Positions 2,898 through 50,354 of a stretch of 50,354 nucleotides of DNA are shown here, piece after piece. Location of the stretch: positions 1-50,354 of the forward strand of contig LFFB01000065.1 in NCBI GenBank assembly GCA_001510335.1, given 5' to 3'. The DNA is from Actinobacteria bacterium casp-actino2. Its GTDB lineage: Bacteria; Actinomycetota; Acidimicrobiia; Acidimicrobiales; Ilumatobacteraceae. Positions within the stretch are counted from its first letter, which is position 1. Every line of letters starts with the position of its first letter. The notes under the pieces are model-generated. The model was not told the DNA's origin, did no database searches, and saw only the letters and a list, made by a program, of their open reading frames with translations. The translations under genes were made by a program, and so were the position numbers.

Positions 2898-4331
2898 ATG
2901 AGTGACTCACAGCGCCCCGATGTCATTGTGATTGGTGCTGGGTCGGCTGGGTGTGTGTTGGCCGATCGACTGTCAAGTCGTGGTTTATCGGTGCTTGTGT
3001 TAGAAGCTGGTCCCGATATCGCGCCTGGCCAAACGCCTGGCGGTATTGATGGGAATTCTTTTTTTGCCGCACTCGAAGAACATGGTCGTCGTTGGCCCGA
3101 TCTTGTGGCCCAACGTGTTGTCGGACAAGAGCGCCGTGAATACGCCCGTGGACGGGGAGTGGGCGGTTCGTCGGCAGTCAATGCAATGATCGGATTGTGG
3201 GGAGAAGTTGAAGATTACGACTCGTGGGAACGCGACTTTGGTTGTGTTGGCTGGTCATGGCGTGATGTTGAGCCGTATTTTCGGCGAATAGAAATTCCGT
3301 TGACTCAAGCCGATGTTGGTGCCCCGTCGCGAATCGGTGCAGCGCTCTTTGAAGCCTGCCGAACCGAAGGGTGGTTGTGGCATCGAGGTCCGTATCCACT
3401 TGGAGCAGTGGGTAGCGATGTTGGTCCAGCAATGTTGACGCGCAATCAAGATGGTCATCGAGTATCGGCGGCAGATATCTACTTGAATCGAGCTCGTCAA
3501 CGTCCGCATGTGCAAGTTGTCTGTGACGTGCTCGTTGATCGCGTTGCCATCGAGAATGATCGAGCAGTTGGAGTCGTACTCGCCGACGGCACGTTTATTG
3601 CGGCAGCAGAAGTTGTTGTTGCAGCCGGGGCAATTCATTCACCAGCGATTCTCTTGCGTAGCAAAATTGATCAACCTGGTATCGGTCAAGGACTACAAGA
3701 TCACCCGTCGGCACCTTTAACAATCGCGCTCGCCGAGTTTTGTTCTCCCGATGAATTAGCTGTCACAACTTTGGCGCGATTCACTTCAGGTTTTGAACCT
3801 GCTGACTTGCAGCTTCTTCCCATTGATCATCTGGGTCAAAGTTCTGAGGGCTACGGATTGTTGAGTGTCGCCTTAATGTTGACGCGTTCGCGCGGACATA
3901 TTGCTTTGGCGTCAAATGACCCGCTGGTTGATCCGGTCGTCAGTTTCAATCTGCTGGCCGATGAGCGCGATATTGAAGCGCTGTCTGTCGGTGTTGAAGT
4001 GGCTCGGCATTTGCTTGAGTCTCCAAGCCTGAAGCGAGTCGCTTCAGAAGTGTTCATTGATGATGTCGGAACCCCATTGTCGGCACTCGGTAACAGTGAT
4101 CATGAGATAGCCACATGGTTGAAATCTCGTACGGGTGATTACGTGCACGCGGCCGGAACCTGTGCTATGGGTGAATCGGCAACTGAGAAGGCGGTGGTCG
4201 ACACGGCTGGGCGCGTTCACGGCATCAAGAATTTGCGCGTGTGTGACGCCTCAATCTTCCCAGTGTTGCCGCGTGCGAACACCCATTTCCCAGTCATGAT
4301 GGCAGCAGAACTCATCGCCGATCGCTGGTAA
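2898..4331 (+). CDS. GMC-family FAD oxidoreductase
   Basis: A 477-residue flavoprotein. The N-terminal Rossmann fold shows VIGAGSAGCVLADRL, followed by the GMC signature around GRGVGGSSAVNAM. The C-terminal catalytic part shows HAAGTCAMG and, near the end, NTHFPVMMAAELIAD, giving the His and Asn/His residues expected of glucose-methanol-choline oxidoreductases. These enzymes oxidise alcohols; the substrate cannot be told from sequence. The ATG at 2898 was chosen because FAD-binding sequence begins 10 residues later; an in-frame extension back to 2805 would overlap the previous gene and lacks family character. The gap to the upstream gene is 14 bases. Confidence 0.88.
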   Translation: MSDSQRPDVIVIGAGSAGCVLADRLSSRGLSVLVLEAGPDIAPGQTPGGIDGNSFFAALEEHGRRWPDLVAQRVVGQERREYARGRGVGGSSAVNAMIGLWGEVEDYDSWERDFGCVGWSWRDVEPYFRRIEIPLTQADVGAPSRIGAALFEACRTEGWLWHRGPYPLGAVGSDVGPAMLTRNQDGHRVSAADIYLNRARQRPHVQVVCDVLVDRVAIENDRAVGVVLADGTFIAAAEVVVAAGAIHSPAILLRSKIDQPGIGQGLQDHPSAPLTIALAEFCSPDELAVTTLARFTSGFEPADLQLLPIDHLGQSSEGYGLLSVALMLTRSRGHIALASNDPLVDPVVSFNLLADERDIEALSVGVEVARHLLESPSLKRVASEVFIDDVGTPLSALGNSDHEIATWLKSRTGDYVHAAGTCAMGESATEKAVVDTAGRVHGIKNLRVCDASIFPVLPRANTHFPVMMAAELIADRW

Positions 4332-43703: not shown

Positions 43704-43719
43704 GCGGGCCCATGCCCGC
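43704..43719 (+). promoter_or_regulatory. Hairpin enclosing the pgeF start codon
   Basis: GCGGGC-CCAT-GCCCGC is a perfect 6-bp GC stem; the ATG at 43712-43714 begins in the loop and its G enters the stem. No clear Shine-Dalgarno precedes it. This would tend to limit independent initiation at pgeF and favour coupling to ftsZ translation, or it may act as a weak stop after ftsZ. Confidence 0.45.
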
Positions 43720-44389
43720 CTTCATCCAACTTCCTGGTATTTCGACGGTCAATTTTGTGGTATCCCATCGATCCGATGGCGATTTCAATAGCGATGTCGT
43801 TGATCGGACATTGCTCCGTTCACGTCGTCAAGAGTTAGTTGCTTTGCCGTGGACGCAATTAAACGAGATTCACGGGTCGGACTCGCAGTGGGTTGAAACT
43901 CCGGGGTCACGCGACGGTGAGATTGGTGATGTCATCGGAACCGATGTGAATAACGCAGTCCTTGGGATTTGGGTTGGTGACTGCGCCCCTGTTTTTCTGA
44001 TTGGTGAACATTTAATCGTTGCCGTGCACGCTGGTTGGAAAGGCCTTCGTGATGGGGTGTTGGCGCATGCTCATGCACTCATGCGCACCCATGATGATGT
44101 TGCCATTCACGGTTTTGTTGGCCCGCATATTGGCCAATGTTGTTATGAATTCAGCGAATCTGACTTACGCGTGATGGCTGACCTGTTCGGATCAAGTGCT
44201 CGCGGTGTTGACCAATTCGGACGCCCGGCATTGAACGTGGCCGCATGCATTCGCAGTTTTTTCAGGTCTTGTGAGATTCCCCTCACTGAACTCAGTGAGT
44301 GCACGGGTTGCCGAGCAGAACAGTATTTTTCGCACCGTGTCCGTGGCGAACGGGAACGACAGATCGTCGGAGTATGGAGAACAACGTGA
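43712..44389 (+). CDS. pgeF: PgeF/YfiH/LACC1-family protein
   Basis: A 225-residue protein of the former multicopper polyphenol oxidase family, now known for peptidoglycan editing (removal of misincorporated L-Ser) in E. coli and purine nucleoside phosphorylase activity in LACC1. The metal site is visible: VGDCAPVFL, VHAGWKGLRDG and GPHIGQCCYEF. It sits in the usual actinobacterial place between ftsZ and the yggS-type gene, which favours the cell-wall role. The stop overlaps the next gene (GTGA). Confidence 0.9.
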   Translation: MPAFIQLPGISTVNFVVSHRSDGDFNSDVVDRTLLRSRRQELVALPWTQLNEIHGSDSQWVETPGSRDGEIGDVIGTDVNNAVLGIWVGDCAPVFLIGEHLIVAVHAGWKGLRDGVLAHAHALMRTHDDVAIHGFVGPHIGQCCYEFSESDLRVMADLFGSSARGVDQFGRPALNVAACIRSFFRSCEIPLTELSECTGCRAEQYFSHRVRGERERQIVGVWRTT

Positions 44390-45066
44390 ACAGTCATGAT
44401 GAGACTTTTGCTGCTCAGCGAATCAAAGAAAATTATGAATTGATCGTGAATCGTGTGCGTAAATATGGTGGCGAACGAGTTCGAGTTGTTGCGGTGACAA
44501 AAACATTTCCCGCTAGTGCGGTGAACGCAGTGATAGTCGCGGGTTGTTCGATGATCGGTGAAAATTACGCTCAAGATTTACTCGAAAAATGGCCGGGAGT
44601 CAATCCAGTCCATCGGCCCGAAGTTCATTTCATCGGTCGTTTACAGTCAAACAAGGTGCGTTCATTGAGCCCGATCGTAGACGTTTGGCAATCAGTTGAT
44701 CGTGGTTCAATCATTGATGAAATTGCGCGTCGGGCCCCGCAATCACGAATCATGTTGCAGGTCAATGCGACTGGTGAGGCAGACAAAGGTGGTTGTGAAG
44801 TCAGCGGGCTGAGCGAGCTTATGACCCGAGCGGTAGACCTTGGTCTTGGTGTAGTCGGATTGATGACAGTTGGACCCACGAGTGGAGATATCGCAATCAC
44901 TCGACGGGCTTTTGAGACGACGGCTCGACTGGCCCATGAATTGGGCGTCCCCGAAGTGTCGATGGGCATGACCGCCGACCTTGAACTGGCCATTGAGTGT
45001 GGCTCAACCATGGTTCGAATCGGGTCGGCTATCTTTGGTGACCGTCCACCCATGGCCCATCAATAG
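44386..45066 (+). CDS. PLP homeostasis protein, YggS family
   Basis: A protein of about 226 residues with the alanine-racemase-like TIM barrel. The PLP-binding Lys is in VVAVTKTFP, and VHFIGRLQSNKVR, LQVNATGEADKGG, GLMTVGP and VSMGMTADLELAIECGSTMVRIGSAIFG are all diagnostic. The family buffers pyridoxal phosphate and affects amino acid pools. GTG 44386 is chosen for its GTGA overlap and a GGAGA 5 bases upstream; ATG 44374 is an alternative. Confidence 0.92.
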   Translation: MNSHDETFAAQRIKENYELIVNRVRKYGGERVRVVAVTKTFPASAVNAVIVAGCSMIGENYAQDLLEKWPGVNPVHRPEVHFIGRLQSNKVRSLSPIVDVWQSVDRGSIIDEIARRAPQSRIMLQVNATGEADKGGCEVSGLSELMTRAVDLGLGVVGLMTVGPTSGDIAITRRAFETTARLAHELGVPEVSMGMTADLELAIECGSTMVRIGSAIFGDRPPMAHQ

Positions 45067-45070
45067 CGAC

Positions 45071-45076
45071 TATTCT
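45071..45076 (+). promoter_or_regulatory. Candidate -10 element before sepF
   Basis: TATTCT matches TANNNT and ends seven bases before the sepF ATG (45084), with no Shine-Dalgarno between. The arrangement is like the other proposed leaderless starts in this window, here inside an otherwise continuous cluster. Confidence 0.33.
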
Positions 45077-45083
45077 TTCGGTG

Positions 45084-45608
45084 ATGTCAATTTTTAGACG
45101 AGCGATGGACTATCTCGGCCTCGGCGAGGACGATGCGTACGATGATTACGGCGACCACGATCAGGCCGATCGTTCGGGCGGCGTTTCGCAAACTGCCGAT
45201 ACTCGTGGTGGTTTCGACGACTCGCGACCAGTTGCCCGTCAAGTGAGTCCTCGTGACACCGACCCGGTTCCAACACCGCGTCGTCCACAGTTTGACGATT
45301 CGTCAGTGCAGCCGCGTCCAATTTCGGCCCGTCAGGGCTCATCAGTTCGAACCTTGGGTGGACCGGTGCAAGGTGAAACCCACACAGTGAAGGCGATTCG
45401 TTTTAACGACATTCAAGAAGTGGCCAATCGTTACCGTGATGGAAACCCCGTGATTTTGAATACTGAAGGATGCGATGATGAAGTGGCTCGTCGCATGATC
45501 GATTTTTCAAGCGGCCTTTGTTATGCGTTGCATGGCAAGATTGAAAAAGTTGCGCGGGGTGTCTATCTCTTAAAGCCAGACACACGCGCCGCCAACCCAG
45601 AATACTGA
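45084..45608 (+). CDS. sepF: FtsZ-anchoring protein SepF
   Basis: A 174-residue protein. The N-terminal amphipathic membrane-binding helix (MSIFRRAMDYLGLG) is followed by an acidic, disordered linker (about residues 15-85) and the SepF core with VKAIRFNDIQEVANRYRDGN and DFSSGLCYALHGKIEKV. SepF binds the FtsZ C-terminal peptide and tethers the ring to the membrane; FtsA is lacking in actinobacteria. GTG at 45081 is an alternative start. yggT follows 4 bases later. Confidence 0.94.
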   Translation: MSIFRRAMDYLGLGEDDAYDDYGDHDQADRSGGVSQTADTRGGFDDSRPVARQVSPRDTDPVPTPRRPQFDDSSVQPRPISARQGSSVRTLGGPVQGETHTVKAIRFNDIQEVANRYRDGNPVILNTEGCDDEVARRMIDFSSGLCYALHGKIEKVARGVYLLKPDTRAANPEY

Positions 45609-45612
45609 ACTC

Positions 45613-45855
45613 ATGAATATTCTTGGCTCTTTGATCACGCTGTACACCGTCGTGCTTTTGTTGCGCGTTGTGACGTCGTGGTTCCCACCGGCTTCATCGC
45701 AAAGCCCAATGGCTTCAGTTCAGCTATGGTTGTACAAGGCGACTGAGCCAGTGCTCGCACCCATTCGACGTACCTTGCCATCAATGGGTGGCTTGGATTT
45801 GTCTCCGATGCTGCTTCTGATCGCGTTGCAGATACTTGGTCGAGCACTGGGGTAG
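45613..45855 (+). CDS. YggT family membrane protein
   Basis: An 80-residue protein with two membrane helices and the YggT signature (VVTSWFPPAS, then EPVLAPIRRTLPSMGGLDLSPML). The function is not firmly known. In actinobacteria it follows sepF and usually precedes divIVA; here ileS follows instead after 50 bases. Confidence 0.9.
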   Translation: MNILGSLITLYTVVLLLRVVTSWFPPASSQSPMASVQLWLYKATEPVLAPIRRTLPSMGGLDLSPMLLLIALQILGRALG

Positions 45856-45861
45856 TGCCGA

Positions 45862-45898
45862 TATCCTCAGTCAATCGTTGATTTTCTGATTGAGACTG
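45862..45898 (+). promoter_or_regulatory. ileS leader: possible -10 element and inverted repeat
   Basis: TATCCT (45862-45867) matches TANNNT. An imperfect inverted repeat, CAGTC-AATC (45868-45876) with GATT-GA-GACTG (45888-45898), ends 7 bases before the ileS ATG. No clear Shine-Dalgarno is seen. The leader is far too short for a T-box riboswitch. Confidence 0.33.
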
Positions 45899-45905
45899 AC
45901 TAATT

Positions 45906-48900
45906 ATGACCGAGCGCCGTTATCCACCCGTTGAATCTCAGCCATCATTTCCAGCGATCGAAGCGACTGTCCTTGAACGTTGGAAGACTGAACACACTTT
46001 TGAAGAATCGGTCGATCAACGTTCAGTTGGTGCTGATGGTTCCAATGAATTTGTCTTCTACGACGGCCCGCCATTTGCGAACGGATTGCCACACTACGGA
46101 CATTTGTTAACTGGCTTTGTGAAAGATGCGATTCCGCGTTATCGCACCATGAAGGGTGAACGAGTTGATCGACGATTCGGTTGGGACTGCCATGGTTTAC
46201 CCGCAGAGGTTGAAGCTGAAAAGCAATTAGGAATTTCTGGTCATCCTGAAGTCACCGAATTCGGAATTGAAAAATTCAATGACTATTGCCGAACCAGTGT
46301 GTTGCGTTACACCAACGAATGGGAACGCTATGTCAATCGTCAGGCCCGCTGGGTTGATTTTGAAAACGACTACAAGACCCTCGACCTTCCGTACATGGAA
46401 AGTGTTATGTGGGCATTCAAGACTTTGCATGTCAAGGGTTTGATTTACGAGGGCTTTCGAGTTTTAGCGTATTGCTGGCGTTGTGAAACCCCGTTGAGCA
46501 ATACCGAGACGCGAATGGATGATGTCTATCGCGATCGTCAAGACCCAGCACTGACCGTAAAGTTTTCGTTGTCGACTGGCGAAAAGATTTTGGCATGGAC
46601 GACTACGCCATGGACGCTGCCATCAAACCTGGCGTTGGCGGTTAATCCTGACATTGACTACGCAGTCGTTGAATTGAACAGCGAGAAAATCATCTTGGCC
46701 GAAGCCCGATTGGCCTCGTATGAACGCGAACTTGGTGATGCGGTACGAGTTGGGACCTTGAAGGGTTCTGAGTTGATCGGACGCACCTACGCACCACTCT
46801 TTGATTATTTCTCGGATACAGCTTCGGCATTCCAAGTACTCGGAGCCGAGTTTGTGACGACCGAGGACGGAACCGGTGTCGTGCACATGGCTCCTGGATT
46901 TGGTGAAGATGACCAGATCGCTTGTCTCGCGGCCGGAATCGAAACTATTTGTCCGATGGACAGCCACGGTTGCTACACCGCGGAAGTTTCCGACTGGGTC
47001 GGAATTCATGTTTTTGAAGCGAATCCATTAGTCATTAAGCACCTGAAGCAGGCTGGCGTTGTCATTCGACACGACAGTTACGATCACTCGTATCCACACT
47101 GCTGGCGCTGCGCTGAACCGTTGGTGTACCGCGCGATTTCGTCGTGGTTCGTCGAAGTAACCGCGATTAAAGCCCGCATGCTTGAACTCAACCAACAGAT
47201 CACCTGGGTTCCTGAACATCTCAAAGAAGGTTCATTCGGTAAATGGCTCGCCAATGCGCGCGATTGGTCAATTAGTCGAAATCGCTTCTGGGGTTCACCC
47301 ATCCCCGTGTGGAAGAGCGATGACCCCACGTACCCGCGTCTCGATGTGTACGGAAGTATCGCCGAGATTGAACGCGACTTTGGTGTGACAGTGACTGATC
47401 TGCATCGCCCAGTTGTTGATGATCTCGTGCGCCCTAATCCCGATGATCCAACCGGACAGTCAATGATGCGTCGAGTGCCAGAAGTTCTTGACTGTTGGTT
47501 TGAGAGCGGATCAATGCCATTCGCTCAAGTGCACTATCCATTTGAGAATACGACGTGGTTTGAACAGCATTACCCTGGCGACTTCATTGTTGAGTACATC
47601 GGCCAAACACGTGGGTGGTTCTACACATTGCATGTACTTGCAACTGCATTGTTTGATCGTCCGGCTTTTTCAACTTGCGTGAGTCACGGAATCGTCCTTG
47701 GTGACGACGGACAGAAAATGTCTAAGAGTTTGCGCAACTATCCCGACCCTATGGTTGTCTTTGACACCTACGGGGCTGACGCAATGCGCTGGTATTTGTT
47801 GTCATCGGCTATTTTGCGGGGCTCGGACTTCTCGGTTACCGAATCAGGAATTCGTGAAACTGTTCGACAGGTTCTTTTACCAATGTGGAACTCCTGGTAT
47901 TTCTTGAGTCTGTACGCCAATGCCGAAGGCGTATCGGGAACTTTCCGCACTGATTCAACGAACATTCTTGACCGTTATATTCTGGCCAAGTCAGCACAGA
48001 TGGTTGAACGAGTCACGCATGATCTTGATGCGTACGATCTCTTTTCAGCATGCTCGGGGGTTCGTGACTTCTTAGATGTCTTGACCAACTGGTATATCCG
48101 TCGTTCTCGCGATCGTTTCTGGGAAGGCGATCAAGACGCATTTGACACGCTGCATACAGTCCTTGAAGTTTTGTGTCGAGTCTCCGCACCGTTACTGCCG
48201 CTTTTGTCAGACACCGTTTATGCAGGCTTGACCGGAGGTCGTTCGGTACACCTCACTGACTGGCCGACGAACACGGCCTTACCGCATGATGTCGAATTGG
48301 TTCGCTCGATGGACCGAGTTCGAGAAGTGTGTTCGGTCGCATTGTCGATTCGTAAAGCCCACAGTCGTCGCGTGCGTCTGCCGTTGAGTGAACTTGCGGT
48401 TTCACATCCCGATTCGGCTGAGTTGGTGTCGTTCATTGACATCATTGCCGATGAGGTCAACGTTAAAAAAGTGACGTTAGGAACCGAAGTTTCGGGGGCA
48501 GCTCCGGCTGTTTTACAAGTGATTCCCGGAGCTCTCGGACCGCGACTTGGCGGAAGAACCCAAGATGTTATCAAAGCCGTTAAATCGGGTAATTGGCGTC
48601 AAGACGGCGAACAAGTTTTTGCGGGAGATATTGAACTTTTTGCGGGTGAGTACACCCTCAAAATGGTTGCCGCAGAAGGTGCGGCAAGTAGTGCTCTCGG
48701 TGATGGTCTCGGAATGGTGACACTTGATATAGAGGTCACCCCTGAGCTTGCGGCCGAAGGCACTGCCCGAGATCTCATTCGATTAGTCCAACAGGCTCGC
48801 CGCGAAGCAGGTCTTGAAGTCAGCGACCGTATCGAAATCACGCTCGGAGTGTCTCAATCGGTACGGCGCCAGATCCAGCCATTTATTGACGAACTAGCGA

Positions 48901-49010
48901 GTGAAACTTTGGCTCAATCTGTCCAATGGGGGCAGGGGGCTATGAACGCCATTTTGGATGATGAGGACATTCATATCGGTGTTGATCGCATAGATATGCC
49001 CCCGAGATAG
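45906..49010 (+). CDS. ileS: Isoleucyl-tRNA synthetase, type 2
   Basis: A 1034-residue class Ia synthetase charging tRNA-Ile. HIGH variant HYGH at residues 63-66 in [21 protein letters not shown] at residues 604-608, an editing domain with [18 protein letters not shown], and two CWRC segments in the first half. The length and C-terminal region (a [11 protein letters not shown]-like block with no terminal zinc cysteines) place it with the eukaryote-like IleS2 group rather than the roughly 940-residue bacterial type 1. Type 2 enzymes are known to be less sensitive to mupirocin. A DksA-like gene and lspA follow, as in other actinobacteria. Confidence 0.95.
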
Positions 49011-49023
49011 GTCGATTTGCAGG

Positions 49024-49029
49024 TATCCT
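49024..49029 (+). promoter_or_regulatory. Candidate -10 element of the DksA-like gene
   Basis: TATCCT (TANNNT) lies in a small inverted repeat, GCAGG-TAT-CCTGC (49019-49031). It is 32 bases before the ATG at 49062, which has its own Shine-Dalgarno-like AAAAGGA (49047-49053). The same hexamer occurs before ileS at 45862. No -35 is evident. Confidence 0.33.
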
Positions 49030-49061
49030 GCCCAACCACACGAGTGAAAAGGACATCAGCG

Positions 49062-49934
49062 ATGGCTAGTAAAACGGTTAAGAAGCCTGCTCCTGCCAAG
49101 AAGGTCGCACCTGCGAAGAAAGCTTCGGCGAAGAAGGCTGCACCGGCGAAGAAAGCTTCGGCGAAGAAGGCTATGCCAGTCAAGAAAGCTCCGGCCAAAA
49201 AGGTCGCTCCTGCCAAGAAGGTCGCACCTGCGAAGAAGACTCCGGCGAAGAAGGCTATGCCAGTCAAGAAAGCTTCGGCGAAGAAGGCTATGCCAGTCAA
49301 GAAAGCCGCACCGGCGAGGAAGGCTATGCCGGTCAAGAAGGCCGCTCCCGCCAAAAAGGTTGCACCTGCCAAAAAGGTTGCACCTGCCAAAAAGGTTGCT
49401 CCGGCGAAGAAGGCCGCTCCGATCAAGAAGCCGGCACCCACTAAGCCAGTCGCACCTGCGCCGGTCAAGGCTCCCCCCGCTCCCAAGAAAGTAGCCAAGC
49501 CAGTTTTTGTCAAGCCACCTGTTCCCGGCAAGAAGACTGTGTCAAAGGACGGAATCATTGCTAACAAAGATTTTGACTTGACGTTCCTTCGTCGCCAGCG
49601 GGCTTTGTTGATTGAACAGCGTGATCGTTTGTTGGGTCGTGCAGTGAGCCTCGAGAATGAATTAGAAAAGCTCATTGAAGAAGCCGGTATGGGTGATGAT
49701 CAATTCGACGAAGATGGTGGCGAAGGTGACACCATGGCCGTTGAACGTGAGCGAGATCGCGTTTTGTCCGATCAAGCGCGTCAGACCATTGAAGAAATTG
49801 ATGGTGCACTTTTGCGCATCGAAACTGGCGACTATGGCTACAGCACCGTTTCAACCCGCCCGATTCCGCGCGAGCGCCTCGAAGTCATTCCGTGGGCAAT
49901 TGAACTCGTTGAAGAACGAGTCGGCTGGAGATAA
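49062..49934 (+). CDS. DksA/TraR-like protein with Lys/Ala tail, cysteine-free
   Basis: A 290-residue protein in two parts. Residues 1-150 are low-complexity repeats (APAKK, ASAKK, MPVKK) resembling histone H1-like or mycobacterial HupB tails, likely DNA- or RNA-binding. Residues about 165-290 follow the DksA/TraR plan: two long helices (FLRRQRALLIEQRDRLLGRA, RVLSDQARQTIEEIDGALLR), then ETGDYGYSTVSTRPIPRERL. The four zinc-finger cysteines of the family are replaced and the protein has no Cys at all. A gene of this type between ileS and lspA is conserved in actinobacteria. A role in binding RNA polymerase is inferred only from the fold. Confidence 0.82.
   Translation: MASKTVKKPAPAKKVAPAKKASAKKAAPAKKASAKKAMPVKKAPAKKVAPAKKVAPAKKTPAKKAMPVKKASAKKAMPVKKAAPARKAMPVKKAAPAKKVAPAKKVAPAKKVAPAKKAAPIKKPAPTKPVAPAPVKAPPAPKKVAKPVFVKPPVPGKKTVSKDGIIANKDFDLTFLRRQRALLIEQRDRLLGRAVSLENELEKLIEEAGMGDDQFDEDGGEGDTMAVERERDRVLSDQARQTIEEIDGALLRIETGDYGYSTVSTRPIPRERLEVIPWAIELVEERVGWR
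49080..49430 (+). repeat. In-gene repeat encoding the PAKK tail
   Basis: Short tandem units of 15-18 bases (encoding KKVAPA, KKASA and KKAMPV) with higher-order copies, for example the AKKAMPVKK block recurring several times. Near-identical units make length variation by recombination likely. Confidence 0.85.
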
Positions 49935-50354
49935 GTGACTCAAGGTCAGCGTAGGATTCCAAGTCTGTCGTTGTTGGTTGCAGCAGTTGTTGTCGGTGTA
50001 GATCAACTCAGCAAACATTGGGCGGTGTCACAACTCAATGACGGGCACACCGTTCATGTGTTGTGGACCCTGCAATTCAATTTGGCGTTTAATAGCGGCA
50101 TGGCCTTTGGTAGGGGCCAAGGTTGGGGCCCGATTATTGGTGTCGTGGCGGTCGTTGTTGTCGTCTTTTTGCTACTTTCGCTGCGGCAAGCATCGAGCAA
50201 GTCTTCAGTGGTCGCAATCGGTCTCCTCGTCGGCGGTGCCATGGGCAACATCGTTGACCGTCTTTTCCGTGGTGACGCGTGGTTGCAAGGAAAAGTCGTT
50301 GATTTCATTGACTTCCAATGGTTCCCCATTTTTAATATTGCCGATATGTGCGTC
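49935..50354 (+). CDS. lspA: Lipoprotein signal peptidase LspA, 3' truncated
   Basis: The first 140 residues, cut by the right edge. LspA removes the signal peptide from prolipoproteins after lipidation. The conserved blocks are visible in translation: VDQLSKHWA near residue 22, FNLAFNSGMAFG, GGAMGNIVDRLFRG with the first catalytic Asp, and VVDFIDF...FPIFNIADMCV with the second. Three membrane helices are seen. The GTG at 49935 immediately follows the DksA-like stop, with GGAG 4 bases upstream. It would process the LpqB-like lipoprotein encoded at 12581-13210, among others. Confidence 0.92.
   Translation, partial: MTQGQRRIPSLSLLVAAVVVGVDQLSKHWAVSQLNDGHTVHVLWTLQFNLAFNSGMAFGRGQGWGPIIGVVAVVVVVFLLLSLRQASSKSSVVAIGLLVGGAMGNIVDRLFRGDAWLQGKVVDFIDFQWFPIFNIADMCV

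Follow-up and report, generated by a model that had tools for sequence, protein, structure and literature searches.

The combination of a histone-like part and a DksA part in one protein has been described before: DdbA (SCO2075) of Streptomyces coelicolor is reported to carry an N-terminal histone-H1-like domain and a C-terminal DksA (PMC9043899). In DksA itself, K98, R91 and K139 are reported to co-ordinate the phosphates of ppGpp, which R129 also contacts (PMC7676912), a DxxDxA motif at the tip is given as needed for DksA/TraR activity (PMC9239242), and the cysteines are stated to undergo oxidation (PMC8262869). RSP2654, SMc00469 and DksA2 are described as lacking the C4 zinc finger yet functioning like DksA (PMC9239242), and DksA2 as being expressed only under zinc starvation, beside the zinc-bearing DksA1 (PMC9213440).

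We analyzed a DdbA-type gene in a window (the whole stretch of DNA under analysis) of 50,354 nucleotides from Actinobacteria bacterium casp-actino2, an acidimicrobial actinobacterium of freshwater type in the Ilumatobacteraceae, the host family below. A first-pass annotation of this DNA had suggested a chromatin-like or RNA-polymerase-associated protein distinct from DksA; that the combination is a new kind of protein is not supported, since tail plus DksA is already published as DdbA and the function of zinc-less DksA is published as well. The same annotation had left room for the subfamily being already characterized, which is the case for the wider family, as DdbA; for the zinc-free branch, a search of the open-licence literature (most subscription papers lie outside it) found no paper that treats a zinc-free DdbA, nor one on the acidimicrobial protein. 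What appears to be new, from the sequences compared here, is that across one family a DdbA-type protein has lost its zinc site as a fixed trait.

The locus and the Lys/Ala/Pro tail

The ileS stop and the ATG of the gene are 51 nt apart, and the GTG start of lspA lies immediately 3' of the gene's TAA (Table 1). The window from 43712 to 50354 (+) has the order of a division cluster: laccase-domain protein, YggS-type PLP protein, SepF, YGGT, IleS, the DdbA-type gene and LspA. A scan of 48700-50354 for one promoter type revealed no promoter-like site, and the same scan gave three terminator-like sites compared to 2.3 expected. We considered a phage origin and set it aside, as there was no match among the phage records searched.

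Table 1. Features of the DdbA-type gene and its neighbors, in window positions
Feature	Position	Strand	Basis or remark
ileS	45906..49010	+	Pfam tRNA-synt_1 2.4e-128, Anticodon_1 7.8e-24
Shine-Dalgarno-like AAAAGGA	49047..49053	+	8 nt 5' of ATG, read from sequence
DdbA-type gene	49062..49934	+	290 codons plus TAA
N-terminal Lys/Ala/Pro tail, residues 1-162	49062..49547	+	composition; NCBIfam hist_H1_lk_Burk 1.3e-6
Tandem-repeat DNA encoding PAKK-type units	49080..49430	+	seven overlapping arrays, units 15-117 bp
DksA-like domain, residues 163-290	49548..49931	+	NCBIfam, predicted structure, Foldseek, VIA-align
Coiled-coil helix 1, domain residues 11-47	49578..49688	+	model; identical limits in control model
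Acidic Gly-rich tip, domain residues 48-58	49689..49721	+	model (low pLDDT here), conserved alignment positions
Coiled-coil helix 2, domain residues 59-93	49722..49826	+	model
Former first CxxC, Ser99 and Ser102 of domain	49842..49853	+	alignment
Former second CxxC, Leu120 and Glu123 of domain	49905..49916	+	alignment
lspA	49935..50354	+	Pfam Peptidase_A8 3.2e-29; runs off window

Translation of the open frame confirmed the earlier statement that the 290-residue protein is without cysteine, and it is also without histidine; the open frames of some relatives have one Cys 5' of the domain. The first 162 residues comprise 51 Lys, 45 Ala and 30 Pro, with 22 KK pairs, a net charge of +52 and a pI of 12.0. 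The absence of any Asp or Glu from this tail is a difference from DdbA. The Lys-rich tail of the first-pass annotation is therefore present, but its position had to be corrected to N-terminal. The similarity of the tail to the hist_H1_lk_Burk profile is weak, below the family cut-off, and a Pfam HC2 match (E 8.1) was dismissed as not significant. Residues 1-162 are nevertheless Lys/Ala-rich and histone-H1-like, as expected of a DdbA-type N-terminus, and residues 163-290 form the DksA-like C-terminus, the same two-part arrangement that is reported for SCO2075. Among full-length host-family relatives the open frame 5' of the domain runs from 63 to 295 residues, a range that includes contigs cut at their ends and excludes one sequence (L068) that begins inside the domain. 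The tail is probably disordered and would be expected to bind DNA.

A 234-aa open frame rich in FFAGA/FLAGA lies opposite the tail (48971-49675, -); it probably just reflects the repeats encoded on the plus strand, rather than being a gene of its own. We also considered whether the tail replaces HU, for which the window's genome (68% complete) gave no match. This was rejected: HU is present in 15 of 16 host-family genomes of the class sample and, with the genome 68% complete, its absence is probably an assembly gap.

The order of tail, DksA domain and lspA recurs across the sampled Actinomycetota. In three genomes of one genus (6.9-9.5 Mb) a K/A-rich tail is followed by a DksA domain with four zinc cysteines and then by lspA, and ileS is close by on the opposite strand. 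We infer that these are Streptomyces and that the protein is DdbA, for which Aldridge et al. 2013 (10.1093/nar/gkt180) is reportedly the primary paper, and we used these genomes as stand-ins for SCO2075.

Predicted fold of the C-terminal domain

The 128-residue domain has a net charge of -13 with 31 Asp/Glu, and neither Cys nor His. A Pfam search of the protein returned no DksA match, zf-dskA_traR (PF01258) included, and the PF01258 profile had no match in the window's genome at its 68% completeness; we do not assign the protein to this C4 zinc-finger family. The NCBIfam profiles yteA (5.8e-14), DksA_like (1.1e-7) and dksA (1.1e-6) matched, all below their curated cut-offs. When solved structures were searched by sequence, 6ptg, 4ijj and 2kq9 headed the list with weak scores (E 4e-4 to 3e-3).

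An AlphaFold model of the domain from 44 aligned sequences (pLDDT 81.6, pTM 0.72) consists of two long helices and a small head, the antiparallel coiled coil with a small globular head that is characteristic of the DksA/TraR fold. Foldseek placed DksA2 of Pseudomonas aeruginosa (4ijj) at the top with E 1.2e-5, followed by E. coli DksA with RNA polymerase (5.6e-4). VIA-align gave Z scores of 12.2 for E. coli DksA (1tjl), 11.5 for DksA2, 11.2 for Chlamydia Dks and 9.4 for 2kq9, values to be read with the caveat that helical models may score a Z of about 13 from a common arrangement; all DksA entries were grouped at the top and the first unrelated row had a Z of 7.6. The alignments to 1tjl and 4ijj each span 113 residues, with an rmsd of 2.1 to 1tjl. 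A control model, built from an alignment without the proteobacterial rows, had a lower pLDDT (64.0) and still ranked DksA2 and DksA first; confidence in the tip was low in both models. The description of the protein as DksA/TraR-like therefore stands, and the prospect of a structure unlike DksA/TraR was not borne out by the prediction. Both reference proteins differ from ours in having no Lys/Ala tail, neither in the matched 129-residue 4ijj chain nor in E. coli DksA.

A second DksA-like frame of 81 aa was observed elsewhere in the window's genome (L238:1489-1734, -; contig C69, about 4048-4167). It has no Cys, reads GTYWVDEISGQPLP at the former first CxxC, matches the profile weakly (E 1.1e-4) and corresponds to a short head from which the long helix 1 is missing; perhaps it is a truncated paralogue.

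The likeness to DksA2, a DksA fold without the zinc finger, raises the possibility that the protein needs no zinc and takes over from a zinc-bearing DksA paralogue during zinc starvation. In a set of 61 host-family genomes, each at least 80% complete except the window's own at 68%, a zinc-finger DksA/TraR match does occur elsewhere in 17. The remaining 44, including all four of the same genus, have no such match, so that in most sampled genomes of the family there is no zinc protein visible to the profile to be backed up. The gene also sits between ileS and lspA, 51 nt from the former and directly next to the latter, and the single promoter type scanned for gave no site. By this profile the protein is no second copy beside a zinc-bearing DksA in those 44 genomes; from locus and copy number we regard the stand-in role as very unlikely.

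Zinc positions among lspA-linked relatives

The four zinc positions of DksA read S/S/L/E in this protein. The two stretches quoted in the first-pass annotation were correctly chosen, GDYGYSTVST including Ser99 and Ser102 and IELVEERV including Leu120 and Glu123, and the loss of the zinc site that it proposed is supported in that all four ligand positions are replaced. The domain might still bind metal through its 31 Asp/Glu, one of the former zinc positions now being Glu; however, it contains no Cys or His, another of the positions is Leu, and DksA2 is described as keeping the fold without a zinc finger (PMC9239242). We consider metal binding of this kind highly improbable.

A homologue was present in 40 of 41 relatives, which speaks against a chance feature, as do the constancy of the four positions and the low omega given below. 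The domain profile hit 146 genomes of 149 in the class and 112 of 148 in the phylum; these last two counts take in paralogues elsewhere in the genome, and a part of the matches was fetched and read. Among 151 distinct domain sequences, 139 had an lspA match in the locus; paralogues and proteins of proteobacteria are among the other 12. With lspA required on the same strand and <1200 nt downstream, L130, L138, L144, L148, L150 and L157 have none, in some cases because the contig ends. Record titles could not be relied on for taxonomy, since several near relatives (L042, L053, L067, L070 and others) carry wrong organism names (Bifidobacterium breve, Ferrithrix thermotolerans, Burkholderiaceae).

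Cysteine retention in the alignment of the lspA-linked homologues ranged from four to none. Of the 139 sequences, 47 are C/C/C/C and 46 are S/S/L/E or S/T/S/E. Another 20 retain just the first Cys (C/S/R/[Y,H,F] in 19, C/S/T/A in one), 16 have three Cys with a replacement at the second position, and 10 show other states. The zero-Cys lineage reads S/S/L/E in 45 of its 46 distinct sequences and S/T/S/E in one (L134). The label 'Cys-free' is exact for the protein in the window but does not extend to four of the 46 (L007-L010), which have one Cys elsewhere in the domain. The host genus yielded 22 full-length sequences from 24 genomes (one genome had no match and one sequence was cut by a contig end), all S/S/L/E, as is a sequence from another genus of the host family (L023). 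In the class sample the protein was found in 15 of 16 host-family genomes (one without a match), 14 with S/S/L/E and one with S/T/S/E. Lineages of the same order are in many cases C/S/R/[YHF], and other relatives are C/C/C/C. The sampled lspA-linked sequences from presumed Streptomyces (L209-L211, L213, L215 and L216) differ from ours in being C/C/C/C in five cases and C/C/C/D in one.

Two states in other lineages are noted here. Sequences from other lineages of the class (L168, L169, L173, L174, L177-L179, L182-L184, L188, L189, L069, L140, L175 and L194) read C/A/C/C, C/S/C/C or C/T/C/C, a different partial state in which the second Cys alone is replaced. Two DksA-like sequences of the actinobacterial family f62 (L217 and L218) read S/S/T/E and C/T/T/A, with no lspA within the fetched stretch; their residues suggest that the site was lost in this family as well.

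FastTree phylogenies built with and without the four zinc columns both placed the 46 zero-Cys sequences in one clade (support 1.0). The unmasked tree, which is not reliably rooted, united one-Cys and zero-Cys sequences in one group (support 0.943). With the columns masked, ten C/C/C/C sequences fell among the one-Cys ones, joined by mostly weak nodes (0.16 at the base). This speaks against a tidy stepwise loss, and a single loss of the last three cysteines is therefore not established. Since four Cys are kept in relatives that occupy the same position beside lspA, the idea that this subfamily never had the site is not borne out, and loss of a zinc site is the simpler reading. Alphaproteobacterial DksA (RSP2654, SMc00469 and relatives) resembles our protein in having lost most zinc ligands. 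The relatives we fetched (mostly Paracoccus, Polymorphobacter and other Sphingomonadales) are mostly C/T/T/A or C/S/T/A; unlike our protein, they keep the first Cys, have DxxDxA-type tips and are low in Lys before the domain.

Tip, ppGpp contacts and proposed function

When aligned with E. coli DksA, 74 zero-Cys rows show E/D in place of K98 (73 rows), Q in place of R91 (62 rows) and I/L in place of R129 (all 74), with R/K at position 139 in all 74. Three of the four ppGpp-contact equivalents (K98, R91 and R129) are thus replaced and only 139 is kept, on which ground we do not class the protein as DksA proper. In 50 C/C/C/C rows K98 is kept in six and R129 in three, so the ppGpp site was probably lost before the zinc. 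The window's genome contains RelA/SpoT and so probably makes ppGpp; its CarD family profile match lies in a 1155-aa open frame, which suggests a TRCF protein rather than CarD.

The tip of most zero-Cys sequences, MGD[DV]QFD[ED][ED]GGEGDT, is acidic and Gly-rich in place of DxxDxA. Two alignments place it differently against DksA, one keeping D..D and the other giving mostly Glu at 74 and always Asp at 76; the Ala is absent in both, in a region of low model confidence. With the DxxDxA form altered, the protein may act on RNA polymerase in another way or not at all. The resemblance to E. coli DksA is accordingly one of fold, while its C4 zinc site, DxxDxA tip, K98, R91 and R129 are all replaced; the earlier view that the protein is distinct from DksA agrees with these replacements.

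These changes could mean that the protein is a nucleoid protein only, in which the tail compacts DNA and the DksA-like part, inactive on polymerase, is a folded or self-associating remnant. The replacement of the zinc site, the tip and most ppGpp-contact residues together fits such a remnant, as does a tail that makes up most of the protein and carries a net charge of +52. However, the median omega of the domain was 0.138 (40 of 120 pairs with dS of 0.1-1.5, from 16 genus and family sequences), by which measure the domain is under purifying selection. The tip residues invariant across an 18-row alignment include G49, D50, Q52, F53, D54, G58 and G60, and the model gives the coiled coil and head the form that they have in DksA. 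Zinc-bearing relatives share the changes at the tip and the ppGpp contacts, which therefore do not result from decay in the host family. We regard a purely nucleoid role as rather unlikely.

We propose that the protein is a zinc-independent, lspA-linked factor of the DdbA type that is tethered to DNA and enters the secondary channel of RNA polymerase without the ppGpp site of DksA. We consider this reading fairly probable and word it no more firmly because polymerase binding is deduced and the tip is altered. By analogy with DdbA and from the fold, the probably disordered Lys/Ala tail would bind DNA with no sequence specificity and keep the factor near DNA, while the coiled coil would enter the secondary channel and modulate transcription. 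A metal-free S/S/L/E core in place of the zinc finger would allow the head to fold without zinc in the cell and would leave it without the cysteines through which DksA is oxidised. With most ppGpp-contact residues replaced, the factor probably works without that site and would not co-operate with ppGpp there.

It is possible, and we offer it tentatively, that the chromosomal DdbA of the host family became permanently metal-free, plausibly by way of the one-Cys state C/S/R/[YHF] that persists in lineages of the same order. With the ppGpp pocket lost beforehand, the outcome would be a secondary-channel factor that is tethered to DNA and responds neither to zinc nor to thiol oxidation, nor to ppGpp at site 2. 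The zinc-finger profile of Pfam does not pick up the DdbA-type proteins of this family. The lspA-linked relatives, whose zinc cysteines number four, three, one or none, form a natural series in which the role of the zinc finger in folding, redox sensing and polymerase contact may be tested.
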